From Janthinobacterium sp. 64 (GTDB lineage Bacteria; Pseudomonadota; Gammaproteobacteria; Burkholderiales; Burkholderiaceae_D): a stretch of DNA of 64,000 nucleotides. Location: contig NZ_PHUG01000001.1 in NCBI RefSeq assembly GCF_002813325.1, forward strand, positions 3,596,001 through 3,660,000. The letters are read 5' to 3'. The notes beneath the pieces were generated by a model. It had not been told where the DNA came from and did not search any database. It saw nothing but the letters and a program-made list of their open reading frames with translations. Below, in pieces: positions 4,734 to 56,418 of this stretch. The translations under genes and the position numbers were made by a program. Every line of letters begins with the position of its first letter. Positions within the stretch are counted from its first letter, which is position 1.

Positions 4734-4758
4734 AAAAATGGCCCGTCACGGGCCATCT
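4734..4758 (-). terminator. Intrinsic terminator after the YbjN gene
   Basis: The inverted repeat ATGGCCCGT/ACGGGCCAT (4739-4757) is followed on the minus strand by TTTTTG. This is a textbook rho-independent terminator, 24 bp past the YbjN stop. It marks the end of the long minus-strand adhesin/TonB operon. Confidence 0.75.
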
Positions 4759-4781
4759 TCGCCACCCGTGGATGGTTCTTG

Positions 4782-5273
4782 TCAGGCCGGCACAGTTTCT
4801 TCTTCCGCCACGCTGGCGGCCTCGACTACCGGCGCCGTGCCCGTATCGGCTGGCGTAAAGTTGCGCAAAAACAAAAAGAACTGGCCCATCATCTGCGTCC
4901 ACAGTTGCAGATTGATATTCAGGTATTCGCGGCTGACGCCACCGGCGACCAGCACATCCATTTCCAGCACGACGAAATCGCCATGCTGGGCCACGCGGGC
5001 AAAACGCTTGCTGCGGTGCCATTCGGCCAGCAAGCCGGCCGGCAAGTCGCCGCCCTGCACGCGCAGCGGGCAGCTCAGGGTCAGGTCCGCGTACTGGCCA
5101 GGCGCCGTTTCATTGCCCCACAGCACTTGAAAGCCGATGCCATGGCTGGCACTGTGCAGGCGCACGACGCCGTCGTGTTCGATGCTCGTCACGGCGCAGC
5201 CGGCCGCCTTGATGGCCTCGGCCGTTTGTTCCGCATTCAGGGTGGTCAGCAAGTTGGTGTTGGTGTGTTCCAT
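4782..5273 (-). CDS. YbjN domain-containing protein
   Basis: This is a small soluble protein of about 163 residues. Its sequence fits the YbjN family, whose fold resembles type III secretion chaperones: a short helix, then the beta-rich stretch around GIGFQVLWGNE, then the closing helix with LWTQMMGQFFLFLRNF. No signal peptide is present. The ATG at 5273 (MEHTNTN) is preferred because GGA lies 7 bases upstream; in-frame ATGs at 5279 and 5288 are alternatives. It is the last gene of the operon, 29 bp after the coiled-coil protein. A chaperone-like role for an exported partner is only an inference from the fold and position. Confidence 0.7.
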   Translation of the reverse strand: MEHTNTNLLTTLNAEQTAEAIKAAGCAVTSIEHDGVVRLHSASHGIGFQVLWGNETAPGQYADLTLSCPLRVQGGDLPAGLLAEWHRSKRFARVAQHGDFVVLEMDVLVAGGVSREYLNINLQLWTQMMGQFFLFLRNFTPADTGTAPVVEAASVAEEETVPA

Positions 5274-5302
5274 CGTCATTCCATTCATTTCAAAAAATAA
5301 AG

Positions 5303-5974
5303 TTATTGGGGTGCCGCCGCGGGAGCGGCCGGCGTTTCCGTCTGGCGCGCGTCAAAGCGTCCCTGGTACAGCTGGTCGCCATATTGCTGGGCGATTTGTT
5401 CCAGCTTGACCCGGCTTTGCGCGGCGAACGGCTGGCGCGCTTGCATGACGCCCAGCACATCGAGGCCTTCATACGCACGCAGGATGTCTTGCCCGGCCGC
5501 ATACAGCTGGGCATTCTTGCTTTCGCAGCGCGCCAGGGCGCTCCGCTGGGACGTCACTTCGCCGTCGAGGCGCGCACGCTCCGCTTCGATCTGCTTGCCC
5601 GTGGCGGCCAGCCGTTCGCTGGCCTGGCGGTACTGCGCCAGGCTGGCCGTTGCCTCTTGCGCGGCGGCGGCGCCGCGCTGTTGCTCGGCTGCCAGCTTTT
5701 CCCGCTGCGCGCGCTCCTGCGCCAGCTGCGACTGGCTGCGCGCCAGCTCCTTTTTCAAGCCGTCGCTGGCAGGCGCGGCGGCAGCGGGCACGGCCTTGGC
5801 TTTGAGTACGTCCAGCTCGCCGCGCGTCTGCTGCAATTGCGCCGTCACATTGCGCAATTCGGCCCGCAGACGCTCTTCCATGCTTTGCCCCTTCTGTCCC
5901 TGCGCCTGGGCCGTGCCGGCGCCCAGCAAGCTCAGCAACAGCAAAGGCAGGCGCATTTTCTTGGATATCAACAT
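5303..5974 (-). CDS. Periplasmic coiled-coil protein of unknown function
   Basis: The 223-residue product has a cleavable signal peptide (cut after GAGTAQA) followed by a long Ala/Gln/Glu/Arg-rich coiled coil (about residues 28-160). Its short C-terminal segment has a single Cys (SALARCESKNAQLYAAG) and an Ala/Pro tail. The start has a good AAGGAG ribosome-binding site. It begins 9 bp after the porin gene stop and is therefore almost certainly co-transcribed with it. Proteins of this look sit next to TonB/porin clusters in other proteobacteria, as far as I recall, but I know of no defined activity. It may be a periplasmic spacer or scaffold between the TonB complex and an outer-membrane partner. 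Confidence 0.65.
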   Translation of the reverse strand: MLISKKMRLPLLLLSLLGAGTAQAQGQKGQSMEERLRAELRNVTAQLQQTRGELDVLKAKAVPAAAAPASDGLKKELARSQSQLAQERAQREKLAAEQQRGAAAAQEATASLAQYRQASERLAATGKQIEAERARLDGEVTSQRSALARCESKNAQLYAAGQDILRAYEGLDVLGVMQARQPFAAQSRVKLEQIAQQYGDQLYQGRFDARQTETPAAPAAAPQ

Positions 5975-5983
5975 CGTGGCTCC

Positions 5984-7711
5984 TTAAAAGCGCGCGTTCA
6001 GTTCGATTTGCAGCGTGTCGATCGACAGCGCCGACCCGAACACTTCGCGGCTCGACGTCCAGCGGCCGTTCAGCCAGGTATTCTTGTCGAGCGCATACGC
6101 ACCGCCCAGGTAATAGCCGCGCGCATTCGTGCCGCCCAGGTGGAAGGTGGAATCGTTGTAGGCGTCAGGCAAGGCGTCCGGTTCGATGCGCTTGTAGCCG
6201 AGCAACACGTTCCAGTCGCCGCGCGCGGCCGGGCTGGCCTTGCCCAGGGTCGCCTGCAGCATGTAGGCATTGCCGCCGCTCCTGAAATCGGCTTGCGAGA
6301 CGCCGCCCGTGCCGCCGAAGTTGTTCATGATGCCGCCCTTGGCGCGCGCCCACATGGCACTCTTGTCGTAGGCCATGTTGCGCACATAATCGCCTTCGAT
6401 GCGCAAGTCCTGGCCGCCCGCCACCTTGCTGTCCCAGCGCGCATTGATATTGGCCAGACGGAATTTAGAGGCCAGACCGACGAATTGCGGCTGCGGCGTG
6501 TTCGCCGGATCGAGCGGGTTCAAGGCGATATTGCGCAGCAACATCAAGCTATTGCCCTTTTGCATGCTCGATGGACGCGACCAGTCCGTGCTGCAGCCAT
6601 CGGCGCCCGCGTACAGCGCACACGGCTGCGAGTACTCTCCGCTGATGTTGCGGAAGTTGTAGTAGGCCAGGGCGCCGCGCAATTGGTGGTCGCTATTGAT
6701 CTTCCACGAGGCGCCCACTTGCGCGCCCAGCAGCCACTTGTTTTCGCTGGCCATTTTTGCCTGGCTGCGGCTCGGTGCATTGTCGGACGAGTACTCGAGC
6801 GGAATGATGCCCAGGGTGCCGAAGACGGTGACGTCCTTGTTCGCGCCCACCGGTTGCTGCAGCTTGGCGGCGATGCCGTCGAAATTGAGTTCGCTGGAAA
6901 ACAGTTCGTCGCCAGAGACGAATGGATTGTCGAAGCGGCCCGCCGTCAGTTTCAGCCAGGAAGCGGGCTGGTACGACAACCAGGCCTGGTCCAGCCAGAT
7001 ATTTTTCTTGCCCAGGCCGCCACCGAGGGTTTGCGTGGTCGACACGGGGCTGTCGTCGTTGCCGCTGGCCAGGCGGATACCCGCTTGCGTGTTGTCGGAA
7101 AGGTCGGCCAGGATGCCCAGGCGGGCACGCGCGCGCAGCAAGTGCTTGCGGTCTTCGCGCGTGTTCAGCAGCGCCGGCAGGGCCAGGTTGGTGTTCGCAT
7201 TGACGTCGTAGCCGCTGCCGCTGTTGAGCGAGCGCCAGTCGATCTCGATATTGCTGTTGGCCATGTCGTAATAGCGCGATTCGTAGCGCGCGCGCACATC
7301 GCCTTCCAGACGGATGCGCTTGGTCCAGGCCGGCGTTTCATTCGGCGCCGCCCAGCCGCCCGCCTTGGCTTCGGCCAGCACTTGCCCCTTGATCTCGTCG
7401 CGGATCTGCTCGCGCACGGTGTGCGACAGATACGGCACGCGCACGTCGCCCGGCTGTACCTGCGCCAGGGCCGCCGGCGCGGCGGCCGGACGGGCTTGCG
7501 CTTCGCTCTGCGCTTGCGCCAGCAGCGCCTCGCCGGCATCCTTGTTGAGGGCGCCGCTCTGGATCAGGCCGCGGATCAGTTTGACCATGGTGCTGTCCGC
7601 CGGTGCTTGCGCTTGTGCTTGCACGGCGCCTGCCGCCACGCTCAGGGCCAGGGCAGCGAGCGCCAGCGGAAGGCGGCGCAGACGCTGTGGGGAGGTAAAT
7701 AAGGAATTCAT
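5984..7711 (-). CDS. Putative outer-membrane porin (Porin_5-like)
   Basis: A 575-residue protein with a signal peptide ending near AGAVQAQAQA. A short periplasmic helical segment follows (MVKLIRGLIQSGALNKDAGEALL), then a beta-barrel domain with alternating aromatic strands such as GDVRARYESRYYD and WLKLTAGRFDNPFVSGDELF. It ends in an aromatic residue (LQIELNARF), the classic outer-membrane sorting signal. This layout matches the putative porin family PF16930. The ATG follows an AAGAAG ribosome-binding site. It lies 36 bp after tonB, so the barrel may be a client or partner of this TonB system, although porins normally need no energy. The substrate is unknown. Confidence 0.82.
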   Translation of the reverse strand: MNSLFTSPQRLRRLPLALAALALSVAAGAVQAQAQAPADSTMVKLIRGLIQSGALNKDAGEALLAQAQSEAQARPAAAPAALAQVQPGDVRVPYLSHTVREQIRDEIKGQVLAEAKAGGWAAPNETPAWTKRIRLEGDVRARYESRYYDMANSNIEIDWRSLNSGSGYDVNANTNLALPALLNTREDRKHLLRARARLGILADLSDNTQAGIRLASGNDDSPVSTTQTLGGGLGKKNIWLDQAWLSYQPASWLKLTAGRFDNPFVSGDELFSSELNFDGIAAKLQQPVGANKDVTVFGTLGIIPLEYSSDNAPSRSQAKMASENKWLLGAQVGASWKINSDHQLRGALAYYNFRNISGEYSQPCALYAGADGCSTDWSRPSSMQKGNSLMLLRNIALNPLDPANTPQPQFVGLASKFRLANINARWDSKVAGGQDLRIEGDYVRNMAYDKSAMWARAKGGIMNNFGGTGGVSQADFRSGGNAYMLQATLGKASPAARGDWNVLLGYKRIEPDALPDAYNDSTFHLGGTNARGYYLGGAYALDKNTWLNGRWTSSREVFGSALSIDTLQIELNARF

Positions 7712-7747
7712 CGCTTCTTTCGGTAAATGAGGAATTAGTTCATGCGC

Positions 7748-8464
7748 TTACGGGCGCCGACCTTTAATGGAAACGCGGGCCGGGAACCGCAGGGATGCCG
7801 GTGGCCGCTCGTCGGCGCGGAAATCGCGCACCATGGCCAGCACTTGCTCATCGGTCTGCGCATTGCCCGTGCCTTGCACCAGCTGCACCTTCGTCGTCTT
7901 GCCTTCCGCATCGAGCCACAGGTCGACGCGGATATCGCTAAACGCCAGCTGGCGCGTGCGCGGGTCGCGGGCGAACGCCATCTGCAGGGCATTGGCCACA
8001 TAGCGGCCATACGATCCCGCGCCGAGTCCGCCGCCACCGCCGCCGCCCGTCATGCCGCCGCCGCGCCCGGCCTGGATGCCGAAGGCGTCGCTGCCGGCCT
8101 GCGCCGCACCATCGATGGTGACGGGGTCGCCCTTGTCCGGCGACGGGCTTTCCGGCGCGTCATCCATGGGCTTGTCGGCCGGCGTCGGTTCCGGTTCCGA
8201 CACTTCCGGCACCACCTTGTCGGGCGTCGGTTCCGGCAGTTTTTCCGGTTCCGGCGGCGGCGGTGGTGGCGGCGGCAGCATCAGCATCGGCGGGGCCGCC
8301 ACTTCGCGCTTGGTGGCGGCCGTGTCGGACAGCAAATACCAGACCAGCGCGGCCAGACCAGCGGCCAGCAGCGCGCCGCCAGCCACGCCGCCCCAGCGGC
8401 GCCACCACTGCGCCGCGCCCGACGCTTCCGGGGCGGCCATCTTCATCATATCGTCACGCTTCAC
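7748..8464 (-). CDS. tonB: TonB-family energy transducer
   Basis: The 238-residue protein begins with a short cytoplasmic tail and one transmembrane helix (about residues 26-46). A stiff Pro-rich periplasmic stretch follows (PPPPPPPPEPEKLPEPTPD), then a Gly-rich linker and a TonB C-terminal domain of about 90 residues (YGRYVANALQMAF, then VDLWLDAEGKTTKVQLVQG). TonB carries inner-membrane proton energy from ExbBD to outer-membrane partners. The start is a GTG at 8464 with GGAG 6 bases upstream, 10 bp after exbD. The linkage to a TPS pair and a porin, with no receptor gene beside it, suggests a dedicated rather than a general TonB. Confidence 0.88.
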   Translation of the reverse strand: MKRDDMMKMAAPEASGAAQWWRRWGGVAGGALLAAGLAALVWYLLSDTAATKREVAAPPMLMLPPPPPPPPEPEKLPEPTPDKVVPEVSEPEPTPADKPMDDAPESPSPDKGDPVTIDGAAQAGSDAFGIQAGRGGGMTGGGGGGGLGAGSYGRYVANALQMAFARDPRTRQLAFSDIRVDLWLDAEGKTTKVQLVQGTGNAQTDEQVLAMVRDFRADERPPASLRFPARVSIKGRRP

Positions 8465-8474
8465 CTTGCGCTCC

Positions 8475-8884
8475 TCATGCCGGCTTGCCGGTCACCAGGC
8501 CCACCTGGTTCAGGTCGATCCGGCGCAGCAAGTCGAGCACTTCGACCACTTTCGCGTATTGCACGGCAGCATCGCCACGCACGATCACGGGAAAGTCGGG
8601 CGTCAGGGCCTTTTCCGTGCGCAAGCGCTCTTCCAGCTCGGGCAGGGTGACGGGATAGGCATCGAGAAAGACCTGGCCCGCGTTGTCGATGGTGATGGCC
8701 TTGGTCTTCGGTTTTTCCAGCGCCATGGCCGAACTGGCCTTGGGCAGGTCGACCTTGATGCCGGGAATGCTGGCGTTGCTGGTCAGAATAAAAATCACCA
8801 GCACCACCAGCAGCACGTCGACGAAGGGCGTGATGTTGATGCCGCCGCTACGCTTGCGGGGGTAAACTTGGCGGAGGTGGCCAT
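8475..8884 (-). CDS. exbD: ExbD/TolR-family protein with an apparent frameshift near its start
   Basis: From the ATG at 8884 (13 bp after the exbB stop) the reading begins MATSAKFTP. The rest of a good ExbD lies in another frame: RKRSGGINITPFVDVLLVV, one transmembrane helix with the conserved proton-path Asp, then the periplasmic domain through DLPKASSAM to VGLVTGKPA. The join falls on five C residues (8858-8862). One extra C gives a continuous 136-residue ExbD. As written, the first frame stops after 29 codons. The second frame has only a GTG at 8816 as a start, which would remove the Asp and half of the helix. This is either a sequence error, a real indel or recoding. ExbD normally works with ExbB to drive TonB. 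Confidence 0.82.
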
Positions 8885-8897
8885 GGTTATGTGCCCC

Positions 8898-10679
8898 TCA
8901 CGCCTGTTGCAGCACGGGACGCATCTGGCGTCCGTCGCCCTGCTCTTCCGCCAGGCGCGTGGCGAATTCATCGACGAAGACGGCCATATCGGCGACGATG
9001 GCGTCCGAACGCGAAGACAGCCAGTTGTAGCCGAACAGCGCGGGAATCGCCACGCCCAGGCCGGCAGCCGTACACAGCAATGCTGCCGCCATGCCCGGCG
9101 CCACCGAGTTGATGTCCACGGCACCAGCCATGGCCGCCACGACGAACACCAGCATGATGCCGATCACGGTGCCGAACAGGCCGACGTAGGGCGCGCCTTC
9201 GATGGTGGTCGAGAGCCAGATCATGCGTTTGGACATGCGTTCGCTTTCGCGCACCATCACGCCATCCATGGCGGCGCGGATGGCGCCGATCGTCGCGTTC
9301 GAGACGGCGTTCAGGTCGTAGCCGCGGTCGTGGCGGCGGCGCATCTCGTCGATGGCCACGTCATACAAACGCCACAGCGAGGAATCGGTCTTCACGGAAG
9401 GGCTCAGCTTGCCGTTGCGCGCCAGGTGGTCGAGCGGCGCGCCGGCCGCTTCGTGGAAGGACTGCATGAATTGCGCATTCGCGCGCGCGATGGCGCCATA
9501 GCTGCGGCCCTTGCCGATCATGATGATCCACGACAAGACCATCATCAAGCCCAGCAGACCCACGACGATCCAGGCGTCGAGCGGCATGGCGGCGATGATG
9601 AAGCCGAAATGGCTTTTGCCCGCTTGCTGTTCATCGGCGCCAAACACGGCCAGGCGCGATTCGGAACCTTGCGAGACGGCGTCGGCCAGCAGCAGCGCAT
9701 CGGGACGGGCCGTGCGCGACAGGCGCAGCTCGTCGATGGCGCCCGTGAAGTTGGCCAGCGTGGCGGCGCCGGAAGCGACCGGCGGCGCATCGGCGCCCAC
9801 CGAGGCGGCCGTGGCGAACGCCGGCAGGGCCGTGGCCAGCGAGACGGCCGGACGGCCGCCCACGTACAGGGCCACGTTGGCTTTATCGGCTTTCACCGCC
9901 AGGTGCGACCATTGCGCCGCCTGGATCGGCTGGCCCGGCTTGCTGCGCTGGCCATTCACCTGCACGAAGGGCACGCCCTGGTCGATTCCGATCAGCAATT
10001 CATTGGCGCCATCGCGGCGCGCATACAGCACTTGCTGCGCGCCCAGGCTGTCCGGGCGCACCCAGGCCGAGAAGGTGAATGGCGCGCCGGCGGCCAGCGC
10101 CAGCGAAGGCGAGGCGGGCAGCATCAGCGGCGCGCTGCCCAGGCGGGCGCCGGCGCCGATGACGGAACCGTCCAGCGACGGCACGGCCGTCTGGGCGTGG
10201 TTGCCGTAGGCGGTGCTGTCGCGCGAGGGCACGCCAGGCTCGGTGAAGTGGTACACCAGGCTGTAGTCGGGATCGAACGTGCGCTGGCCATTGCCGGACG
10301 CGGGCGCCTTCGGATTGCCGTAGTACATCCACAGCTGCTGCGGCGTGCCGGCCGTCAGGGCCGGTACGTCGACCCAGATCAGGGCGATGCCCAGGAGCGG
10401 GTTGAACTGTTCGATCTGGTGGTTCAGCACCGTTTTATCGTCGCCCGCCACGAAGCGCAGGTCGGCGCCGTTGTCGCTGACGCCTTCGAAATTGAAATTA
10501 CCCGAATGCAAGCGCAGCAGCACGGGAATGCGGCCGGGATCGCCGCCCACGGCGCCGGCCTTCGGGCCCGCGTCGACGGTGACGGGTTTGCGGTAAGCCC
10601 AGTCGGGCTGCCACCAGGCATGCGCCAGGCCGGGAACGAGCGTGCCCAGGATCGTGAGCAGGAATAATAAACGTTGCAT
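8898..10679 (-). CDS. ExbB/TolQ proton-channel protein fused to a DUF2341-LamG periplasmic half
   Basis: A 593-residue chimera. The first 21 residues are a signal peptide (LVPGLAHA). The mature end opens with WWQPDWAYRKPVTVDAG, the signature of DUF2341, and goes on to a LamG/concanavalin-like domain (about residues 140-325; DYSLVYHFTE, PFTFSAWVRPDSL, FTGAIDELRLSRTARP). A transmembrane helix follows (AWIVVGLLGLMMVLSWIIMI). The rest is a MotA/TolQ/ExbB channel domain with the usual two conserved helices (EGAPYVGLFGTVIGIMLVF and AALLCTAAGLGVAIPALFGY). Normal ExbB is only about 230 residues and has no such head. It precedes exbD and tonB, and starts 56 bp after tpsB. A glycan or protein sensor coupled to the motor is an inference. 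Confidence 0.87.
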   Translation of the reverse strand: MQRLLFLLTILGTLVPGLAHAWWQPDWAYRKPVTVDAGPKAGAVGGDPGRIPVLLRLHSGNFNFEGVSDNGADLRFVAGDDKTVLNHQIEQFNPLLGIALIWVDVPALTAGTPQQLWMYYGNPKAPASGNGQRTFDPDYSLVYHFTEPGVPSRDSTAYGNHAQTAVPSLDGSVIGAGARLGSAPLMLPASPSLALAAGAPFTFSAWVRPDSLGAQQVLYARRDGANELLIGIDQGVPFVQVNGQRSKPGQPIQAAQWSHLAVKADKANVALYVGGRPAVSLATALPAFATAASVGADAPPVASGAATLANFTGAIDELRLSRTARPDALLLADAVSQGSESRLAVFGADEQQAGKSHFGFIIAAMPLDAWIVVGLLGLMMVLSWIIMIGKGRSYGAIARANAQFMQSFHEAAGAPLDHLARNGKLSPSVKTDSSLWRLYDVAIDEMRRRHDRGYDLNAVSNATIGAIRAAMDGVMVRESERMSKRMIWLSTTIEGAPYVGLFGTVIGIMLVFVVAAMAGAVDINSVAPGMAAALLCTAAGLGVAIPALFGYNWLSSRSDAIVADMAVFVDEFATRLAEEQGDGRQMRPVLQQA

Positions 10680-10735
10680 GACAGTGATTCTCCGAATTAA
10701 AGTCTAAAAAAGTGCAGTGCTGGTGAGCTGGCCCG

Positions 10736-12349
10736 TCAGTAGCTGGCCGACAGGTTGAAATTAATGCGGCGCACGTGTTTGTGCGTGCGCGGGCCATCGC
10801 GCAGCGGATACGCAAAGTCGATGCGGCCATTCAGGTAGCGCAGGAACTGAAAGCTGCTGCCCACGCCCACCGAGGCCAGGCCGAACAGGTCTTTCTGTTC
10901 CACCAACGGGTCGCGCAGGCGCAGGCGCGCGCCATCGGCAAACGCGTACAAACGCCAGTTTTCCAGGCGGCTGAAATACGTCAGCTGGGGCGTGCGCCAT
11001 TCGACCGTGCCGGACACGCCGTAGTCGCCCGTCGCTTCGGCCGACAGATAGCCGCGCACGGAATTGGCGCCGCCGGCGGCCATCTGCTCGCCCGACACCA
11101 GCGCCGCGTCGGCCAGTTGGCCGGCCAGCTTGCCGTACAGCTGCGCGCCGCTGCCCAGGGTGGTGGTGGCGTTGGCGTCGCCTTTCAGGACGAGGAAGCT
11201 GGGCGAGGCCTTGTAGCGCTTGTTGTCGTAGGCGGCGCTGTCGCTGCCATAGCCGAATGAAGCGCGCGTGCCGGCCACCAGCGACAGGCCCAGGCCGTAG
11301 GTCGCCGCCTCCGTCTGCGCAAAGCCGTTATATGACACGCTGAGCGGCACGTATTTCAAGGGAACGCTGGAACCGGCGCCATTCAGTTTCAGCGCTTCCT
11401 GGTTATCCTTGAAATCGATGCCGGCGCTAAAGCTGTGCCACCAGATGCCGCTGTTGGGCACCGTGTAATTGACTTTCATGCCCAGCGCATGGCCCTTGCC
11501 CAGCACGCTGGTGCCGCCCGTGCTGGCCACGTTGCTGTTCGACTGGTAGCCGGTCGCTTCCACGCTCCAGCCCTGCGTGCCGATCGGCGCCACGTACGAG
11601 GCGGACCACACCTTGGTCTGGTTCAGGTCGCCCGGCGTGCCGAAAAAGCTGATGGTGGCGCTATGGCCCAGTTGCCACAGGTTGTCGTGGCCGAGCGAGA
11701 CGCTGCTGCGCAGCTTCTTGGTATCGGCGCTGTAATCGTTGTTCAGGCCGACGCTGGCGCGCCACGGGCTGCTGTCGTCCACTTTCAAGTCCACGTCCAT
11801 GGTGCCGGGCAAACTGCCTTGCTTGACCAAGGGCATCACCTGGCGCTTGGGTCCCCGGTTCAGGGCCGTCAGTTCCACTTGCGCCTGGGTAAAGTCGGGC
11901 ACCTTGCCTTCCGTCAGCGCCGGCACTTGCTGGCGCACGTCGAGCGGCGAGTTGTATTGCGCACCGACCACGCGCAAGCGGCCCACCCTGGTTTCGCTCA
12001 CCTGCAGCACCACCACGCCCTGCTCCACCTGCTGCTCGGGCAAATCGACGTAGACGGACTGGTAGCCGCGCGCCTGATACGCGGCAACGAGGGCGTCGCG
12101 CGCCCCTTCCACGTCCTTCAAAGTGCGGCCCGGCCCCAGGAAGGGCGTGACGGCCTCTTCGATGGCACGCGCATCGAGTACGGTATTGCCGCGCACCAGG
12201 TATTCCTCGATCGTCACTTGCCGTTCCGGCGCGGCCACGGGGGCGGCGTCCTGGGCGCGCGCCATGCCGGGCAGCGCCAGCATGGCCAGGCACAGCATCG
12301 TCAAGGCGGTTGCGGGCGCCTGCGGCACGCCGTTACCTCGTTTATTCAT
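10736..12349 (-). CDS. TpsB-family outer-membrane transporter (ShlB/FhaC/HecB)
   Basis: A 537-residue outer-membrane protein: signal peptide ending near GMARA, then two POTRA repeats (VTIEEYLVRGNTVLDARAIE... and RVGRLRVVGAQYNSPLDVRQQ), then a 16-strand barrel. The barrel carries the family VRGY motif (ANSVRGYLSAEATGDYG) and ends in an aromatic residue (NFNLSASY). TpsB proteins bind the TPS domain of a partner exoprotein and pass it across the outer membrane. The partner is the huge tpsA immediately upstream. The ATG at 12349 is preferred over 12358 because GGAAG lies at a sensible distance. About 200 bp and a terminator separate it from tpsA, so it may have its own promoter. Confidence 0.9.
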   Translation of the reverse strand: MNKRGNGVPQAPATALTMLCLAMLALPGMARAQDAAPVAAPERQVTIEEYLVRGNTVLDARAIEEAVTPFLGPGRTLKDVEGARDALVAAYQARGYQSVYVDLPEQQVEQGVVVLQVSETRVGRLRVVGAQYNSPLDVRQQVPALTEGKVPDFTQAQVELTALNRGPKRQVMPLVKQGSLPGTMDVDLKVDDSSPWRASVGLNNDYSADTKKLRSSVSLGHDNLWQLGHSATISFFGTPGDLNQTKVWSASYVAPIGTQGWSVEATGYQSNSNVASTGGTSVLGKGHALGMKVNYTVPNSGIWWHSFSAGIDFKDNQEALKLNGAGSSVPLKYVPLSVSYNGFAQTEAATYGLGLSLVAGTRASFGYGSDSAAYDNKRYKASPSFLVLKGDANATTTLGSGAQLYGKLAGQLADAALVSGEQMAAGGANSVRGYLSAEATGDYGVSGTVEWRTPQLTYFSRLENWRLYAFADGARLRLRDPLVEQKDLFGLASVGVGSSFQFLRYLNGRIDFAYPLRDGPRTHKHVRRINFNLSASY

Positions 12350-12484
12350 CTCACGCATCTTCCATTCACCTTAAAATCAAACGGTTGCCCTACCCGGTAT
12401 TGCGGCGCCGAACGCTATGCTCAGCAAGACAGTACCTAGACGAACGCCACATGCACGAACTGACGTTTGTCATCAAATGTTCAT

Positions 12485-12519
12485 AAAACTCCGGCCGCGA
12501 CCTTGGCGCCGCGGCCGGA
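12485..12519 (-). terminator. Intrinsic terminator between tpsA and tpsB
   Basis: A perfect 10-bp stem (TCCGGCCGCG at 12490-12499, its complement at 12510-12519) is followed on the minus strand by GTTTTATG. It sits about 30 bp past the tpsA stop and should stop much of the tpsA transcript before tpsB. Partial read-through or a second promoter would then set the transporter level. Confidence 0.7.
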
Positions 12520-12547
12520 AAGGCCTCCCGTCAAGCCCGGACTGCGC

Positions 12548-15500
12548 TTACGGCTGCAAGCCGCGCCGCTCGTTTGGCGTGAGCGCCTGCAGCTGCGGCG
12601 CCGTCAGCGGCCCCGCGCCCAGCACCTGCACCACGCCGGCCGGCTGGTAGCTGGACGCTTGCGGCTCGCTGCCCTTGCCCTTGCTGCCCTCGTCCGCCTG
12701 CTCGTTGCCAAAGCCCAGCACCTTCACGGTAAACAGCGATGGCAGCGCCTGGCGCGTGGCGGCCCGTTCGCGCTGCAGCACGTCCTGCGCCGCCGTCACG
12801 GCTTGCGAGGCGGCCGCGCTGGCGTTGCTCAGTGCGCCCACGTTCACGGAAGCGATGGTCGGCACGCCCGTCGACTTGCCCTGCACCTGGATGTTTTCCG
12901 CATTCACCACCTGCAAGGCAGCCAGGTTGACGTTGCCCGAGACGCGGATGCCCGCCTCGCCCGCGTCGATGCTGCCCAGCGGGGCGATCAGGTCGATGTC
13001 GCCGGGCGGCACCTCCGGGATCGGATTCAGGGTGGCGATGCCGGCGCCCGTCGTCGGCGTGCTCGGCGACAGGCTGACCAGGCCGATGCTGTCGTAGGTA
13101 CGGCGCTGCGGCGTGTAGACGACGGTGGACTTGGTGCCGCGGCCCGCATTGATGTCGCCCGTGGCCGACCAGGCCAGGATGTTGCCGCCGAAGGTGGTGA
13201 AGATGCGGCTCTGGCCCAGCAGGATGCTGTCTTTCGCATACATCTGGATGTCGCCCTGTCCCTGCGTCAGCACGCCCGAGCCTTCGCCCGGCGCATAGCC
13301 GCCATCGACGCCGATCAGCGCGCGCCCGCCCGGCACCGTGATGCCGATGTCGCCGCCGGCATCCGTGTGGATGCCCGCATCGTTGACGGTCACATAAGGC
13401 ACGTTGTAGTCGGGACGGCCGGCCTCGGCCCATTCCTGCGGACTCAGGTAACGCACGCCCGCGACGGGACGCTTGGTGTACACGCCGCCGTATCCGTTGA
13501 CCGTGTACAGCGCGCTGCTGAACATCGTCAGGTCGCCCTGGTACTCGATCTTCTGGCCCGCCTTGTCCTGCGATGGGAACAGGGTGGCGATCGCTTCGCG
13601 GCCGCGCAGGTAGCTGCCGCGGCGCATGCCGTCCGGATCGTTGTACTCGCGTCCGGCCGCCTTCAGTTCGGCAAAGTAGACATTGCTCAGGTAGACCTGC
13701 TGCTGTTCCTTCGGCAAGGCGGCAAAGAAACTGCGCGCATCGGTGGCCGGGTCGTAACGGATGCCCAGGCCGCTGTCGCCGCCAAAGCGCGTCGTCAGCC
13801 AGTTCACCAGGTGCAGCTGGCTGACCTGCGCATACTCGCGCGCCAGGTCGCGCCGCACGCCGCCCGTCTGCTGGCCGGCCTTTTCCAGTTCCGCCTGCTT
13901 CGTGCCGAGGAAGGCGGACGCGCCCGCCTCGTCGCCGCTGTAGGCGAACTGGCCGCGCAGCCAGTCGGCCAGGGTCAGCTTGCCGCCGTAGACATACACG
14001 GCGCTGCCGGCCTGGTCGGCCAGCGGCTTGGCCGGATCGGCCAGCCTGGACGGGTCCAGATAGCGCGCCGCGAAGGCCGCATAGTCGGGACCGTTGCGGC
14101 CCACGCCGGCGGCCACGCTGATGCCGGCGCCGTTGCCGCGCTTGTCCTGGCCGACATTGACGATGGAGCCGAGGCTGCGCAATTCCGCCTTGTCGGCCAT
14201 GTACAAATCGCGCCCGGCGCTCACGTTCAGCTGGCCCGGCCCCGCCACATAGAAGGTGCTGTAGCGGATGTCGCGGCCGGCGCTGACGACGGAAACGTCG
14301 TCGGCATGGCGGTGCACGAACAGGTTGCCGCGCGCCGATGAGCTGCCGAAGACGACCGGCTTTTCCGGCAGTTCGGGACTGTTGGCAAAGGGCTGGCCGG
14401 TCCATCCCGCTGCGCCGTCCGGTACGCTCTCGACGTTGCCGAGCGGCGTGCCGGAGTTGACGATGTCGCGTCCGGCACGCACGGCCACGGCGCCGCCGCC
14501 CTCGTACCACAGGCCCAGGGCGCCGCTGACGCCCTTCAGGTTGCCCCGGTACACGATACCGCCCGTGCGCAGGCCGACGATGTCGCCGCTATTGGCATAG
14601 AAGTGCGCGGGCAACTGGCCTGCCGGCACATAATCGGAAACCGTCGGCGGGGTCATGCTGAACAGCGGATACGTCTGCTGCGCACCGCTGGCGCCGTTGC
14701 TGGTCGCCCCCAGCAATTTCAGCGCTGAAGGCGCCAGCGCCTCCTGGCTGACGTTATGCAGCGGCAAGTGGCCGAACCACACCGGGCCCAGGGCACCGAC
14801 GAAACCGGGATTGAACGGGCTCGGCAAGAGTCGCGGATCGGCGCCCGATTGCGTGATCGGATAGCCGGCCGCATGGATGGAGTCGGCGGCCAGCATTTCC
14901 AGCTGGCCCGCGCCCGTCCTGACAAACTGCGGCGCCACCGGTGACGGCGCCAGGATCACGCCGTTTTGCGGCATGTCGACCTTGCCGCCATCACCCAGCC
15001 TGCCCAGGCTGGCATTGCCGTAGTACAAACTGCCGCTGGCGGCCACGGCGCGCAGCACGGACGGCATGACGAAACGCCCGTCCGACGGCGCGTAGTTGTC
15101 GCCGACCGTCGCATTGATCCAGGACGAGGTGGGCGTCAGGTTGCCGCCCGCGCTGAACAGGTCGATGGCCGTGGCCGGCGTCCACAGCGAGAACCAGCTC
15201 CAGCCTTCGCCGGTGCGCTCCACGCCCTGGTAGCTGAACGGCGAACCATAGCCCAGTTGCTTCACGCGGCCCGCATCGGCCACGCCGCCCAGCACCACAT
15301 CGCCGCGCGCATCGATGCGCACGCCGCTGTCGCCCGGCACCAGGATAGGCCCGCCGCTGGCGATCGCCGTACCCGCCGTGTAGGTTTCATACGGCCGCGA
15401 TTCCTTCGGATCGGCGCGGTCGAAGCGCAATTCGATGCCGCCCACGGCGCCCGCCTCCAGGCGCAGCGCGCCGCGCAGGTTGGTCAGCGTGCTGTTCAGG

Positions 15501-21500: not shown

Positions 21501-24500
21501 TGCGCCAGCCCCAGCGAGGTGGCGCTCAGGCGCAGGCTCTGGCCCAGCGACAGCTTGACGTCGCCGTCAAAACTGAGCATGCCGTTCACATGCAGGGCCA
21601 GGTTGTCGAAACCGCCCGCCTGCACGCGGTCGGCGCCCAGGCGCGCGCTGCCGTAGCGCAGCGCCGCATCCTGCTGGCCGGCGCGCAAGTCCTCGGGCAA
21701 GGCGCTGTCGCCCTGCACCTGCGCCAGCTGCAGTTCGCGCGGCACGCGCACCGCGTTGTCCACGTTGTCGCCTTGCAAGTCGTAGCGGTTGACCTTGCCA
21801 TAATTGGGCGTGTCCAGCGCCAGCGCCAGGGTGCCGCCGGCCGCACCGGCGCCACCGGCCACGGCGCGCAGGGTGCCATCGGCAAAGATGCCGTTATACG
21901 AACTGAGCGCAATCAAACCGCCGTTGCCGGCCACGTTGACGGCGCCCTGGTTCGGCAAGTCCAGCGTGGCTTGCGCGCCGCTGGCGTCAAGCAGCGCACC
22001 AGGCCGCACGACGACAAAGGCGTCAGCCGCGTCGACGCTGGCGGCGTCGGCCTTGTAGCGGGCACCGATTTCGATGCTGCCGCCCTTGTCGGCGCGGCCA
22101 TAGCGGTCGCCGCGCATGTCGGTGGCGACCGTGGCGCGTCCGGCGACGTCGAGCACGGCCTTGTCGCCGATCCAGATCGACGTGGCTTGTCCCTTGCCGT
22201 TCGGCACATCCACCTCATTGCCCGTGCCAAACGTGCCGGGCAGGACGGCGATCTTGCCGCCCCAGGCGTCGAGGCGGCCGTCGATGGTGATCTGGTCATT
22301 GCCTGTCAGGCTGATCTGGCGGCCCGGATCGACCTTGATGGCGGCACCTTCCTGCACCGCCAGGGCCCCCTTCACGTAGGAGCTGCCGGCCGTCAGCGAC
22401 AGGTTGGCGCCGGCGCGCTGCGTCAGACGGGCCTTGCGCGCATCTTCCTGGTACAGCTGTGGCGTCCACAGTTCCAGCGCTGCAGCCGGATCGGTACCGC
22501 CCGCCACCGTGTGGCCCGTGGCGGGATTGAAACGCAGCACGGGCATCGCGACATCGATCTGCGCATCCTTGACCACCACGACGCCATCGCGGCCCGTGAT
22601 GGCGTAGTCGGCAAAGCCGCTCTGGAACAGGCTCGCGCCCAGCGCCAGCATGGGCTGGACGGCAACATCGCGTCCCAGCACCATGCCAGTCGGCAGCAGC
22701 ATGCCGCGCGGCGCGCGCACGTCGTCGGTGGCGACGCTGCCAGCCGCATACTGCGTCGTCACTGGCTGAATCGGCAAGCCGTTCGGAAAAACCGCCGCCG
22801 AGACCTCGAAACCTGTAGTGAGACCGTTGATGGCCGTTACCACGCTGCCGGCGGGAACGATGGAACCACCCCAGACATACGCCGTGCCGTTGATGAAGAA
22901 GCTCGCGCCCTGCGGCACCAGCAAGTCGGCCCCCAGCACCAGCGGTTTCTGCATCGACACATCCGCCGTCACGGGCTTGGCCAAGGTCTGGCCCGGCTTG
23001 ATCAGGCTGGTGATGATGGCGAAATCAAAGGGGACCTTCTCGCCCTTGGCAATCAAAAATTCATCGCTCAGGCGCAGGCCGACGGGGGCGCTGCTCCCCG
23101 CCGCCAGCACGTCGCCGCCCTGCAGCTTGCCGCCGATGCTGACGGCCGTGCCGCTGTCGATCACCAGGCGCCCGCCGCCCTTCACGCCATGGCCGCGCAA
23201 CTCGCCGTCAAGCTTGAGCAAGGCGCCCGTCGACGCTTTCTCCGTCGGCAGATCGACCGCCAGGGTGATGTCGCCGCCGCGCCCGCCCTGCAGGCTGCCA
23301 TTGCTCATCAGGGCCGCGCCGGACGAGACGTCGATGACGCTGCCGCCCGTCAGCTCAACGCCGCCCGAGCTTTTCAGAGTGACCTTGCCGCCATTCACAT
23401 ATGGCAAGCCGGCGACCGCGCCCGGATCGAGTTCCAGGTTGCTCCACAGGCCGCGCGCATCGAGACGCACGCCGGGCGCCACGCGCACGCCGGCCGTTCC
23501 CGCAGGACGGTTGTCCGGCACCAGCTTGCCTTCGACCCATACCGCGCCCGCATTCGCCAGGTAGCGCGAGATGATGTCACCGGCGGCGATGCTGCCGCCG
23601 CGCGCGCTCACGTTCGCCTTGATGGCCACGTCGGTGGCGTGCAGGGCGACGTCGCCGCCATCGGCCACGCGCACGTCCCCGTTGACGTCGAGCTTGTCGT
23701 AGGCGTAGATATTCAGGGCGCCCAGTTCCAGGCCATTGAGCCAGTCCGCATCGAGCTGCAAGGTCTTGCTGCGCGCGGCCGGCAAGGCTTCAGTGAGCAG
23801 CTGGCCATCGGCAACAGGCGCCACCTTGCCGATCTCGACTTTTTCCAGCACGGCTTGCGGGCTGTCGCGCAGCTGGCCCGCCTTCGTGTCGAAGACGGGC
23901 GTCATTTTGCCGACGATCAATTGACCGGCGCGCGCCGCCGACGTCTGCGCCTGCTTGTAGCTATCCATGCCGTCATCGCGCTTGCGCTGCTGGCGCTCGC
24001 CCTGGAACACGGACGTGTCGATATCGCCTTCCAGCACGGCCGCGCCCGTGGAAACGATCAGGCGGCCCGCATCGCGGCCCACCGTGTAGCCGTTTTCCAG
24101 GCGTTCGCGCGGACCGATCAAGGCATTCGCATAGGTTTCCGTCGTGTTCGCGCCCCAGCGCGCATGCGTGCTTTCAAAGCCGCGGTACAAGCCAGTGTAC
24201 AGATTGTCGCCGGGGGCAGTGCTGAGCTTGTACATCGCGCCATCGGCGCCCTTCAGCCACGTCTGCCTGACCATGCCCGTCTGCACGTCCAGCGAGCCGC
24301 CGGCGATATTGATGCGCGAACCGGCCTGCGTCACCACTTCGCCGCCGCCAAAGCCGACGGTGCCGCCCTGGGCCGCCCACTCGCCGATGCCGTGGCCACT
24401 GGTATTGAGGTAGCCGCTCACTTCCAGCAGGCCGCCGGCCGTGTACCAGCGGTCCGTGGCGTAGCCATTGGTGCCGGCCGGCACCAGCACCAGATCGCGG

Positions 24501-26176: not shown

Positions 26177-26331
26177 GGCGACATTCCCTTTTCATGTTCC
26201 GTTGCTGACCGATATCGCGAAAGGGCGCGCGGCACGCACGGGGCGGGCGGCAGGCACTGATTCGCGGCTTCCAGCAGCATTGACAGGGAACAAGGTCCGG
26301 GACTGCAAAAGGTCATGAAAATGTCATAATT

Positions 26332-26381
26332 GGCTGAGCACCTCGGGGCGCCAAGGCGGAGCGCCAAGGCGGGGCTCAGCC
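26332..26381 (-). repeat. Hairpin with a tandem 13-bp repeat at the fecR-like gene end
   Basis: GGCTGAGC and GCTCAGCC enclose two direct copies of GCGCCAAGGCGG(A/G). The structure overlaps the stop codon of the FecR-like gene and ends about 155 bp before tpsA. No T-run follows on the minus strand, so it is more likely an RNA-stabilising or attenuating structure than a classic terminator. Confidence 0.45.
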
Positions 26382-27323
26382 GAACAGCACGATGCCGCCC
26401 GGCAGCCGCGTCACGCGCGCGCCATACGCGTCCTGGATCAGGGCGATCACGTCGTCGAGGCGGTCGAGCGAAAAGCTCGCTTGCACGCGCGTCAGTTTCA
26501 AAGCCTCGCCATTGAGGATCAGCTTGCCGGGACGGTAGCGGTTCACCTCGTCCACCACCTCGGCCAGGGTGCTTTGTTTAAAAACCAGCAACCGGTGGCG
26601 CCACGCGCTGACGTCGCTTTTTGCCACCGCGCGGGCGATGCCGAAATGCTCGGGCCGGTAGCGCAGCTGCTGGCCCGCCGCCAGTTCCGCATCGTTGCCG
26701 GCCTGCGCCACGCGCAAGCGGCCCGCCAGGCACGTCACGCACACTTCCTGGCCGAACAGCCGGATATTGAAGCGCGCACTGCCGGCCGACACCGTGCCGT
26801 CGCCCGCCTGCACGCGCACCCGCGCCGCGCCGCGCAAGCCGGCCTGAAATTCCGCTTCGCCCGCCAGCAGCACCAGCGCCGCGGCGCCATCCTGCAGCGG
26901 CGCCGCATCGAGGCGCGTCTGCGTATTCATCTGCACCAGCACGCCGCCGTCGAGCGCCACTTCGCGCTGCTCGCCCGTGCCGGTGGCGTAGTCGGCGGCA
27001 AGACCGGCCACGGCCGGCCACAGGTCCGTGGGCGGGCGCAGCACCAGTAAACCCAGCGAGGCGGCCACGGCGCCACCGAGCCAGGCGCGCCGCGCCACGT
27101 TGACGGGCGCCTGCGCCCGCTTGACGGCGCGCGCGGCCGGCGCCATGGCGCCCCACACGGCGCGCGCCTCGGCAAAGGCGTTGGCATGCTTGCGGCTGCG
27201 CGCGCACCAGTGGCGAAACACTTGCGCGTCGCGCTCGCTGACCTGGCCCGAGGCCAGGCGCACGACCCACGCCTGCGCTTCCTTCTGGATGACACCCATG
27301 TCGTCTTCCGTTTGTTCAATCAT
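26376..27323 (-). CDS. FecR-like anti-sigma factor
   Basis: A 315-residue regulator. The cytoplasmic N-terminus matches the FecR N-terminal domain (AQAWVVRLASGQVSERDAQVFRHWC). One transmembrane helix follows (about residues 75-97), then the periplasmic FecR domain (REVALDGGVLVQMNTQTRLD, LLAGEAEFQAG). It ends in an STN-like closing region (STLAEVVDEVNRYRPGKLIL). Such proteins hold an ECF sigma factor until a periplasmic signal arrives. The start at 27323 overlaps the sigma gene by 8 bp, which implies translational coupling. The open frame continues upstream to 27671 but only as the sigma gene read in a wrong frame. It is the last gene before tpsA, so tpsA is a likely target. Confidence 0.88.
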   Translation of the reverse strand: MIEQTEDDMGVIQKEAQAWVVRLASGQVSERDAQVFRHWCARSRKHANAFAEARAVWGAMAPAARAVKRAQAPVNVARRAWLGGAVAASLGLLVLRPPTDLWPAVAGLAADYATGTGEQREVALDGGVLVQMNTQTRLDAAPLQDGAAALVLLAGEAEFQAGLRGAARVRVQAGDGTVSAGSARFNIRLFGQEVCVTCLAGRLRVAQAGNDAELAAGQQLRYRPEHFGIARAVAKSDVSAWRHRLLVFKQSTLAEVVDEVNRYRPGKLILNGEALKLTRVQASFSLDRLDDVIALIQDAYGARVTRLPGGIVLFG

Positions 27324-27873
27324 GATGTTTAGACGTTTTTCCCGCGCCGGGACCGAAGCGCTGGATGAAATCGCGTCCCATGCGTTCACAACAGTGTTCG
27401 AGGCCGGCGCGCAATTCCTTCTCCACCGTGCGGGCGGAAATGCCGAAGCGCTCGGCGATGTCGCGGTGCGGCAACTGGTCGACGCGGGCGGCGATGACGA
27501 TGGCGCGCCGGCGTTTCGGCAACTCCTGCATGGCCCGTTCCAGTTCTTCCAGTTCGGCGCGCGCGCTGAAGGTGCGGGCCGGGTCGGCCAATTCATCGGC
27601 CATCTCGTACAAGTCGTCGATGTCGGGCAGGCTGAGCAGACGCGCATTGTCGCGGCGTTGATCTTCCGCAATGTTGATGGCGATACGCATCAGATACGCG
27701 GACGGGTAGCTGATCGCCTCGGGCGTATTCATCCGTTCCACCCGCAGATACGTTTCATGCAGCGCGTCATTGGCCAGGTCTTCCGAGCCGAGGCGGCGCT
27801 GCAGGTGGCGGCGAAACTGGCCGTAGCGCTCCAGGAACAGCTTGCGCAAGGTGGTTTTGAGTAATTCCGACAT
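27316..27873 (-). CDS. ECF-family RNA polymerase sigma factor (FecI-like)
   Basis: A 185-residue sigma factor. Region 2 runs from about residue 10 (FLERYGQFRRHLQRRLGSED, then AYLMRIAINIAEDQRRD). Region 4 is a helix-turn-helix near the end (LPHRDIAERFGISARTVEKE). The ATG at 27873 has GGAG 10 bases upstream and lies 2 bp after the STN protein stop; an in-frame ATG at 27912 would overlap that gene. The order of STN protein, sigma and FecR resembles iron-type cell-surface signalling, except that no TonB-dependent transducer barrel is next to it. It probably transcribes the adhesin operon downstream, but a promoter could not be shown. Confidence 0.9.
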   Translation of the reverse strand: MSELLKTTLRKLFLERYGQFRRHLQRRLGSEDLANDALHETYLRVERMNTPEAISYPSAYLMRIAINIAEDQRRDNARLLSLPDIDDLYEMADELADPARTFSARAELEELERAMQELPKRRRAIVIAARVDQLPHRDIAERFGISARTVEKELRAGLEHCCERMGRDFIQRFGPGAGKTSKHHD

Positions 27874-27875
27874 GC

Positions 27876-28607
27876 TCAGGGCGCTCCAGCCAGCTGCAGG
27901 TAGGGCGCGCAATCGGCGCCAGGGTCGGGCCGCGGCGTTAATAAAATCGTCAGCGGCTGCGGCAAGCCCGCCGGCGGCGCGCCATCGATCAGCAGGCTGC
28001 TCAAGCGCAGCAGCACGGCACGGTCGCGCTGTTCCACGCCGCTCGGTTCGAGCACGTGCACGGCGCGCACCTTGCCCCGCTCGTCAAGCCACAGCTGGAA
28101 GGCCAGCCGGTAGCGGCCAAAGGCGTCCGGATGCAGCCGGCACAGGGCGCGCGTGAGCGAGCGCTGCAGGATGGCGGCATAGCCTTGCAATGCTGCGCTG
28201 GCAGGGGTCACTTCGGCAGGCACGGGCGCTGCTGCCACGGGCGCGTCGGCCAGCGCCAGCAAGGTAAACGCATTGCTGCCGCTGAAGCGCGCGCCCAGCT
28301 GGGTGCCTGCCAGCAGGCGCTGCAGCGCTTCGGCCGGCGTGTAATCGCCGCGCACGGGCGCGGCCACTTTGCCGGCCGCCAACTGGCTGCTGACGAGCAC
28401 GGAATACCCGGTCACTTCGCCAAACGCCACCAGGGCCGCATCGAGCGGCTGGGCGGGCAAGTCGAAGCGCACGGTGGCCTGCGTGCCGGCCTCATTGCCG
28501 GACGCACTGGCAGCCGGCCGCGCGAATGTCATGAATGTCATCAATGTCATCAGCAAGCAGGCGGACAGGGCATTACCCCTTGCGGTGCGGCGGTGGATTC
28601 GTGTCAT
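27876..28607 (-). CDS. Secreted STN-domain protein with a TonB-C-like tail
   Basis: A 243-residue periplasmic protein. A signal peptide (about residues 1-36) precedes an STN domain at about 46-115 (FDLPAQPLDAALVAFGEVTG, APVRGDYTPAEALQRLLAGT). After a short linker comes a C-terminal domain resembling TonB-C folds (RYRLAFQLWLDERGKVRAVHV). STN domains normally sit at the front of TonB-dependent transducers or secretins and signal to FecR; here there is no barrel at all. The gene is directly upstream of the sigma factor (2-bp gap), so it is likely the periplasmic input or adaptor of that switch. Both domain assignments are by eye; the STN call is the firmer one. Confidence 0.8.
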   Translation of the reverse strand: MTRIHRRTARGNALSACLLMTLMTFMTFARPAASASGNEAGTQATVRFDLPAQPLDAALVAFGEVTGYSVLVSSQLAAGKVAAPVRGDYTPAEALQRLLAGTQLGARFSGSNAFTLLALADAPVAAAPVPAEVTPASAALQGYAAILQRSLTRALCRLHPDAFGRYRLAFQLWLDERGKVRAVHVLEPSGVEQRDRAVLLRLSSLLIDGAPPAGLPQPLTILLTPRPDPGADCAPYLQLAGAP

Positions 28608-28798
28608 TGTCCAGGGAAATCAACGAGAGCCTGCTCATGAAGTGTCTTGACTGCAATGTTGTCTGCAGAATGGCAGGATGGTAGCTTCATAAAATGACAA
28701 CTGCATGACATGGCGCCAGCCCGCATCCCGCCTGTGTCATCGCCGCGACATATGATCTTGCTATGCTGAACGCCTCATCCACCTCTCCGGGAGCCGCC

Positions 28799-46761: not shown

Positions 46762-46977
46762 GGGTCTCTCCTTTATTTGGGCAATCGAAACTTGAGTTAT
46801 CAAGTCAGGCTGTTAGATATGTCGCAACGTCTGTCCCGCAGTACATTTTTTATGACATTTGCGCATGACTTTATTTGTTTTCATTTTCAGAGTAGCGCGA
46901 TGCATCCGGGCCCAGCCAATGAAAAATGCTTTCCTAACCATAACTTTTTGGAATGAATGCCCTTTTCAGCGACGTGG

Positions 46978-56317: not shown

Positions 56318-56393
56318 TGGTGGAGGATGACGGGATCGAACCGACGACCCCCTGCTTGCAAAGCAGGTGCTCTCCCAGCTGAGCTAATCCCCC
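56318..56393 (-). tRNA. tRNA-Ala (TGC)
   Basis: A 76-nt cloverleaf starting GGGGGATTAGCTCAGCTGGG and ending in encoded CCA. The anticodon loop is CTTTGCAAG (anticodon TGC), and the T-arm is GGTTCGATCC. It is in the usual position before 23S. Confidence 0.97.
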
Positions 56394-56418
56394 TAGGGTA
56401 TTTCCAGACTACAGAAAC

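Follow-up and report, generated by a model that had tools for sequence, protein, structure and literature searches.

A two-partner-secretion adhesin locus with its own ExbB-ExbD-TonB motor in Janthinobacterium sp. 64, and the co-inheritance of its parts

We analysed a window of 64,000 nucleotides (positions 3,596,001-3,660,000) from a large contig of the 6.3-Mb genome of Janthinobacterium sp. 64. All coordinates below are those of the window unless another contig position is given. Its minus strand carries a two-partner-secretion (TPS) locus. More precisely, a giant adhesin (TpsA) with a DUF3739 domain and its outer-membrane transporter (TpsB) stand beside a TonB-type proton motor, a Porin_5 porin, a coiled-coil protein and a sigma/anti-sigma switch with an STN sensor. 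The A subunit of the motor is a fusion of DUF2341 to an ExbB domain. Comparison across genomes shows that TpsB, the ExbB fusion, ExbD, TonB, Porin_5 and the coiled-coil protein behave as one evolutionary module, co-inherited with DUF3739 adhesins.

Co-inheritance of the adhesin and the motor

We counted the DUF2341-ExbB fusion and DUF3739 in three samples: 349 genomes of Pseudomonadota, 250 of the order and 31 of the genus. In the first sample, the fusion (E <= 1e-30) occurs in 11 of the 349 genomes and DUF3739 in the same 11. Full-length Porin_5 is found in these 11 genomes too, and 5 further genomes give weak or partial matches. In the order, 28 genomes have the fusion and 28 have DUF3739, with 27 common to both (27 of 29 positives). 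The exceptions are G422, which is 84% complete and split into 520 contigs, and G499, where DUF3739 lies at a contig edge. In the genus, the adhesin and the motor are present in the same 20 genomes; two others (G357 and G360) show DUF3739 matches below the cut-off and have no motor. Because of kinship among the genomes and some overlap between the samples, formal odds of co-occurrence overstate their independence.

The transporter follows the same distribution. TpsB relatives with at least 38% identity are confined to 10 of the 11 motor genomes (349 searched). The remaining one, G284, gives no TpsB match, and its motor sits on a 3.8-kb contig. Ten other genomes of the 349 have TpsBs with at most 33% identity, and neither the motor nor DUF3739. 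An earlier note on this DNA had proposed that the motor belongs with the TPS system. For tpsAB pairs of the DUF3739 class, company with the exbB fusion is the rule at all three depths, and the proposal stands; it does not extend to the more distant TpsBs, which come without such a motor.

We also compared 80 loci, the best named loci found by a scan with the ExbB fusion; many of their flanks are cut by contig ends. Profile matches were obtained for ExbD in 79 loci, TonB in 76, the porin in 73, the coiled coil in 66 and TpsB in 46, and 75 loci match TpsA or TpsB. Such an arrangement is far beyond chance. The STN count (76) was left unused because TonB C-termini cross-match and inflate it. Loci of this kind are found in Alpha-, Beta- and Gammaproteobacteria and in Verrucomicrobiota, and Pseudomonas has the same gene block, for instance in L093-L099 and L169. 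Some like loci, mostly betaproteobacterial, have two exbD genes (L121, L148, L150, L153, L155, L157, L158, L159, L162, L164, L165 and L168).

Because of this co-inheritance, it is well supported that the motor would serve the TPS machine or the adhesin, and not the uptake of a nutrient.

The locus and its published relatives

Profile matches and frame reading placed all eleven consecutive minus-strand genes in the order given by the earlier note, between 4782 and 28607 (Table 1). The TpsA-TpsB pair shows the hallmarks of type Vb secretion, namely a TPS secretion domain on TpsA and POTRA_2 plus a ShlB barrel on TpsB. It is linked to exbB, exbD, tonB and a porin of the PA0696 type. Likewise, an STN protein without a barrel, and with a TolA/TonB-like C-terminal domain, adjoins the extracytoplasmic function (ECF) sigma factor and FecR. 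The earlier note also spoke of a full TonB motor. The genes for the ExbB fusion, ExbD and TonB are all there, but the exbD frame is broken as assembled. The TonB is divergent: it passes the NCBIfam TIGR01352 cut-off (30 bits against 27.1) and stays below that of Pfam TonB_C (16.7 bits against 24.6).

Table 1. Positions of the genes, domains, motifs and candidate sites of the locus, in window coordinates.
Feature	Position	Strand	Basis or remark
Pho-box-like site (12/14)	28694-28711	-	about 100 bp upstream of the STN gene
STN sensor protein (VreA-like)	27876-28607	-	PF07660 E 3.5e-11; STN domain and TonB-type C-terminal domain, no barrel
ECF sigma factor (VreI-like)	27316-27873	-	Sigma70_r4_2 E 2e-15, TIGR02937 65.6 bits; start read by eye
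FecR-type anti-sigma factor (VreR-like)	26376-27323	-	DUF4880 PF16220 E 3e-10 and FecR PF04773 E 5e-12; start read by eye
Pho-box-like site (11/14)	26310-26327	+	upstream of tpsA
TpsA giant adhesin (PdtA-like), 4542 amino acids	12548-26176	-	TPS domain E 2e-19, DUF3739 E 1e-38
DUF3739 domain of TpsA	12857-13189 (genome C1:3608857-3609189)	-	predicted end of the beta-solenoid (AlphaFold2, AF2)
TpsA tail motif, copy 1 (VKVLGFG)	12707-12727	-	in the low-confidence C-terminal tail
TpsA tail motif, copy 2 (VQVLGAG)	12611-12631	-	starts 27 residues from the C-terminus
TpsB outer-membrane transporter (PdtB-like)	10736-12358	-	POTRA_2 PF08479, ShlB PF03865; AF2 model
DUF2341, LamG and MotA/TolQ/ExbB fusion (motor A subunit, ExbB2-like)	8898-10679	-	profile matches
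exbD (motor B subunit)	8475-8884	-	frameshifted near its start as assembled
TonB (TonB4-like)	7748-8464	-	proline-rich linker, system-specific C-terminal domain; TIGR01352 30 bits
Porin_5 (PA0696-like)	5984-7711	-	PF16930 E 2.2e-186
Coiled-coil protein with signal peptide (position of PA0697)	5303-5974	-	
YbjN-family protein (PA0698-like)	4782-5288	-	PF10722 E 4e-8

Judged by gene families and gene order, the locus is the counterpart, in Janthinobacterium, of the PUMA3/sigma-VreI-PdtAB locus described in Pseudomonas aeruginosa. The PAO1 side of this match is known from published names and order, and the agreement makes the locus a further member of a described kind. Published work is cited here from excerpts. 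In those of Llamas et al. (2009; PMC2729926), the vreA-vreI-vreR module is described, with VreA as a mostly periplasmic protein made of an STN domain and a TolA/TonB-like C-terminus, the latter linked to the TolA fold at 9.3% identity. The sigma factor raises tpsA (PA0690), tpsB (PA0692), exbB2, exbD2 and PA0696-PA0699. A paper of 2020 (PMC7035377) gives the regulon as pdtA, pdtB, exbB2, exbD2, PA0695 (tonB4), PA0696 (a putative outer-membrane porin), PA0697 and PA0698 (YbjN), and calls the motor "still uncharacterized" in its excerpted text. The earlier note had called a dedicated proton motor in the same block unexpected. It missed that the kind has been in print since 2009: PMC2729926 reports PUMA3 clusters elsewhere, including Janthinobacterium, in association with TPS, ExbBD and PA0696 homologues. 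We found no paper on DUF3739 in the open PubMed Central literature.

Both loci share the STN protein, the ECF sigma factor, the FecR-type anti-sigma factor, TpsA, TpsB, exbB-exbD-tonB, the porin, a periplasmic-type protein and the YbjN protein. They also share a pho-box-like site before the sensor gene, and the 2009 paper already describes the cluster as multiplied in Janthinobacterium. The differences are the following. The gap between tpsA and tpsB is 189 bp in the window, with no phdA-sized gap; an SNF2 helicase, and not PpiC, follows YbjN; and no Hxc genes are present among the window neighbours scanned. The present genome has four adhesin-sensor cassettes and two module copies, one with the frameshifted exbD. 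The gene arrangement is therefore not new. What is added here is the co-inheritance, a domain shared by the sensor and TonB, and a motif in the adhesin tail.

Elsewhere in the window, genes for tRNA-Ala and tRNA-Ile stand side by side at 56318-56495 (-), in sequence of lower guanine-cytosine content. They probably lie in spacer DNA within an rRNA operon.

The sensor and its C-terminal domain

In the genus, the number of STN-TonB sensors equals that of DUF3739 adhesins in all 20 adhesin-bearing genomes (45 and 45; the count for G376 was taken from two contig-end fragments). No full-length sensor is present in the 11 adhesin-less genomes among the matches listed (down to about E 8e-14); G374 has one further match at E 9e-9. 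These equal numbers mean that the sensor goes with the adhesin. The motor is single-copy in 19 of the 20 adhesin-bearing genomes, with up to five adhesins per motor. The TpsB-motor-porin module thus looks like a shared machine.

The C-terminus of the sensor aligns to the C-terminus of the TonB of this system (hhalign probability 99.1, E 4e-19, 88 columns). With a profile of the TonB C-terminus built without the sensors, 12 of 12 sensors score 32-69 bits, against at most 15 for canonical TonBs (8 of the genome's 11 places). Six small proteins of such loci score 25-43 bits. Small proteins that amount to little more than this TonB-type domain are encoded in the vicinity of adhesin or YbjN genes in several loci (L038:4956-5528, L103:16468-16974, L100:20093-20560, L100:16254-16700, L050:17267-17830 and L045:3479-4234); none was recognised in the window. 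On the other side, four membrane-anchored TonB-like proteins beside alphaproteobacterial sensors were rejected as members of this subfamily (9-13.5 bits). Because the C-terminal domain is common to the sensor and TonB and specific for this system, it suggests that both may have the same ligand.

The C-terminal tail of the adhesin

We aligned the C-termini of 45 DUF3739-TpsA proteins. They consist of the solenoid, a variable linker and then a conserved stretch with the consensus PSxxxVEVLGFG, which forms the very end of the protein in several species. The strict core, V-x-V-L-G-x-G, is present in 26 of 47 non-redundant tails, compared with 0.17% of body windows and 0.13% of shuffled tails. A loose form is found in 40 of the 47 tails, against 23% of random body windows and 18% of shuffled tails. 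It is absent from 7 of 7 motorless TpsAs, each of which has a TPS domain at 71-139 bits by profile. These controls come from 6 of the 10 genomes with motorless TpsBs, plus the third system of the present genome (L173, L174, L175 and G140 were left out). Three motorless TpsAs of different genomes (L040, L170 and L172) share another C-terminal signature and all end in YCN.

The AF2 model of the TpsA C-terminus was made with 42 of the 45 tails, two near-duplicates and one tail spanning a cut being left out. Both motif copies of the window lie outside the confident solenoid, at a predicted local distance difference test score of about 60 or less, and the tail beyond the solenoid is predicted to be disordered. 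A Foldseek search with this model gave nothing at E <= 0.001. The profile of the tail alignment, searched against PDB sequences, found only two agglutinin chains at E 0.35-0.40. Paired cysteines follow the motif in the tails of L129, L138, L140, L148 and L152, where they could form an anchoring loop.

The motif resembles some TonB boxes. The window itself encodes a TonB-dependent receptor (44011-46803, -) with the box RVEVTGS soon after its signal peptide. We examined 16 receptors of the same genome and genus; four have TLRVTGQG or TLRVNGQG, and the other 12 have boxes such as TVTVSA or EITVTA, which are less alike.

Properties of the motor

With solved chains, the sequence of the A subunit scores higher for TolQ (75 bits) than for ExbB (46 bits). 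The pore residues Thr148 and Thr181 of ExbB (numbering of PMC8599685) are kept in 92 of 92 relatives. The position of Glu176 is occupied by Ala in 82, Gly in 8 and Ser in 2, and by Glu in none. The pore Asp of ExbD is conserved in all 101 relatives that cover this column. According to excerpts of PMC8599685 (2021), an ExbB of Sphingobium without this Glu, not necessarily of the present class, is dispensable for growth and was judged likely non-functional as ExbB. Compared with the canonical Ton system, the ExbB/ExbD/TonB architecture is the same. The TolQ-like ExbB without Glu176, the DUF2341-LamG part and the divergent C-terminal domain of TonB are different. We rejected a plain iron-uptake Ton system, given the TolQ-like subunit, the loss of Glu176 and the absence of a TonB-dependent receptor among the eleven genes of the locus.

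A proposed action of the motor on the adhesin tail

Taken as a whole, the best explanation seems to be a type Vb system equipped with a motor, in which the adhesin would be held, pulled or released by way of its periplasmic tail, read by both TonB and the sensor. We consider it probable, although far from certain. Its two parts do not have the same strength. The coupling of the motor to the TPS system is well supported, and the tail mechanism is what we infer from the shared domain and the motif. The adhesin would be exported through TpsB, with its disordered C-terminal tail staying in the periplasm. The C-terminal domain of TonB would bind the V-x-V-L-G-x-G motif or motifs of this tail, which might enable the motor to retain the adhesin, pull on it or let it go. 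For its part, the sensor would read the same tail with its related C-terminal domain and inform FecR.

Several observations weigh against this explanation. The loose motif is frequent by chance, as the random body windows show. Seven of the 47 tails are without even this form, six of them with a degenerate version by eye. The tails are homologous, and their likeness to one another is for this reason not convergence. Their likeness to TonB boxes is short, weak and partial. Of the 80 motor loci, five are without TpsA or TpsB within the fetched flanks, and the exbD of the window is frameshifted as assembled. Since the Glu176 position is Ala, Gly or Ser throughout, this motor may work otherwise than ExbB does. 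P. aeruginosa from which vreA was deleted is unaltered in sigma-VreI activity and in virulence (excerpts of PMC4971064 and PMC7035377). Likewise, insertion mutants of tpsA, tpsB, the tonB homologue and PA0696 kept their virulence in zebrafish (excerpts of PMC2729926). The idea that the adhesin is sensed and reported to FecR, put forward in the earlier note, consequently has a mixed record: the equal numbers and the related C-terminal domains favour it indirectly, and the vreA deletion, which had no effect on sigma-VreI output, speaks against it.

The second copy of the module

A block of 7.1 kb (window 5308-12406) recurs at C1:1707652-1714752 with 99.4% identity. It contains tpsB, exbB, exbD, tonB, the porin, the coiled coil and about 48 bp before tpsB. 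The two copies differ mainly at both edges, and about 6.1 kb between them are identical except for one base in exbD. This pattern may be that left by gene conversion or a recent copy; an effect of assembly in a repeat may also account for it. The present genome is alone among the 31 of the genus in having a second motor copy. It holds four DUF3739 adhesins, each preceded by its own STN-sigma-FecR set, along with the two TpsB-motor modules. Its third TpsB is 30% identical and has no motor nearby. In the sister genomes G363, G368 and G371, the module has the gene order of the window. In each of the two orphan adhesin cassettes (C1, about 460-504 kb), an extra ECF sigma gene starts at the stop codon of the adhesin (L036:266-979 and L037:12929-13534).

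The base in question lies in a short C run near the 5' end of exbD. In the second copy and in two sister genomes the frame is intact (window region 8475-8897); the run in the window differs from theirs in length by one base, which breaks its ATG frame. The break may come from slippage or from an assembly error. If it is real, the motor of the window could be a decaying copy, and only the second module would work. The break relative to the other three genes is what favours this alternative. However, a homopolymer assembly error would look just like a single differing base in about 6.1 kb otherwise identical, and the other genes of the module are open. We see decay as a possibility to keep in mind, rather than as the expected outcome.

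Possible other targets for TonB and the sensor

The sensor and TonB might read a shared ligand other than the TpsA tail, for example periplasmic parts of TpsB or of the porin, and report the state of assembly to FecR. Their common C-terminal subfamily would fit such a ligand. This alternative is less easily reconciled with the genus, where the sensors multiply with the adhesins and the motor stays with its module as a single copy in 19 of 20 genomes. So, this alternative appears unlikely to us.

About the same low standing goes to an energised type Vb system, with TpsB as the target of TonB and secretion thereby powered or gated. Nothing observed here singles out the TpsB barrel or the porin barrel, the two targets named in the earlier note. 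TpsB does belong to the conserved block and to the repeated 7.1-kb unit. Its AF2 monomer (predicted local distance difference test score 87) is built of two POTRA domains and a barrel of 16 strands, and the structures nearest to it are those of CdiB and FhaC. Excerpts of PMC5422565 describe the solved type Vb barrels as plugged by a helix. The model predicts no helix besides the signal peptide before POTRA1, and no N-terminal plug helix; its residues 46-47 align to residue 53 of CdiB (6wim) and to residue 57 of FhaC (4qky). The stretch before POTRA1 is short and of low complexity in the clade members listed, so that some other kind of gate might be required. In the motorless TpsB of this genome the stretch is short too and the first strand similar, which means that the short N-terminus does not single out the client of the motor. 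A TonB box at the N-terminus of TpsB was rejected, as the strand is also present in the motorless TpsB of L040, and no TonB-box-like segment was seen beyond the first POTRA strand. Published results point the same way: liposomes support type V translocation with no energy supplied (PMC5422565), and the adhesin-associated SiiAB channel of Salmonella is not needed for secretion (PMC12607715), both according to excerpts.

Regulation and the porin

Each of the four sensor genes of the genome is preceded, at a distance of 91-119 bp, by a pho-box-like site, with 12, 11, 10 and 11 of 14 positions matched. In background windows of 300 bp, scores of at least 10, 11 and 12 occur in 12%, 2.5% and 0.7%. 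Of the four tpsA genes, that of the window has such a site (11 of 14) and in the three others nothing rises above background; the count over the whole window is not above chance (5 against 3.3). Excerpts of PMC4971064 describe PhoB control of vreAIR and expression of the regulon under low phosphate in P. aeruginosa. The sites before the sensor genes would agree, to a modest degree, with PhoB control here.

Low phosphate also offers the last alternative, in which the motor opens Porin_5 for the uptake of a nutrient scarce in phosphate starvation and the adhesin is merely co-regulated. The pho-box-like sites, the low-phosphate regulon of P. aeruginosa and the matching distribution of full-length Porin_5 (11 of 349 genomes) can be cited for it. 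Nevertheless, co-regulation alone leaves the co-inheritance with DUF3739 adhesins at three taxonomic depths unexplained. In G268, moreover, exbB-exbD-tonB lies on another contig than the porin, which has kept its place beside tpsB, tpsA and the coiled coil. We regard this alternative as improbable, the least credible of those considered.

Meaning for two-partner secretion

A motor that would serve an adhesin has parallels in other secretion systems. In Salmonella SPI-4, SiiA-SiiB is a proton channel of the Mot/Exb/Tol family dedicated to the giant secreted adhesin SiiE and thought to govern its retention and release. It is needed for the invasion of polarized cells, as excerpts of PMC12607715 report. 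The secretion is of type I and the adhesin is another one; the likeness is one of logic alone. The same holds for GldLM and SprB in the gliding and type IX secretion of Bacteroidota, where a 5:2 proton motor moves a surface adhesin (PMC9389320, excerpts).

Extended to the whole class, a motor acting on the tail would describe a distinct and widespread group of TPS systems. Their adhesins would have a TonB-box-like periplasmic tail, pulled by a TolQ-like motor through the TonB domain and read by the related domain of the sensor. The tension or occupancy of the adhesin would then be driven by the proton-motive force and reported to transcription. We offer this broader picture only tentatively, as a speculation that may well turn out wrong.

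As an arrangement, the locus is ordinary, because it is in print. As a class it is more than ordinary, because in the sampled genomes its parts hardly ever occur apart, which suggests a coupling that can be tested. TPS is described as free of an energy source in excerpts of PMC5422565, and yet one of its classes is almost never found without a proton motor in these genomes. The co-inheritance, the domain shared by the sensor and TonB, and the motif in the adhesin tail make the open questions about this class specifically testable.

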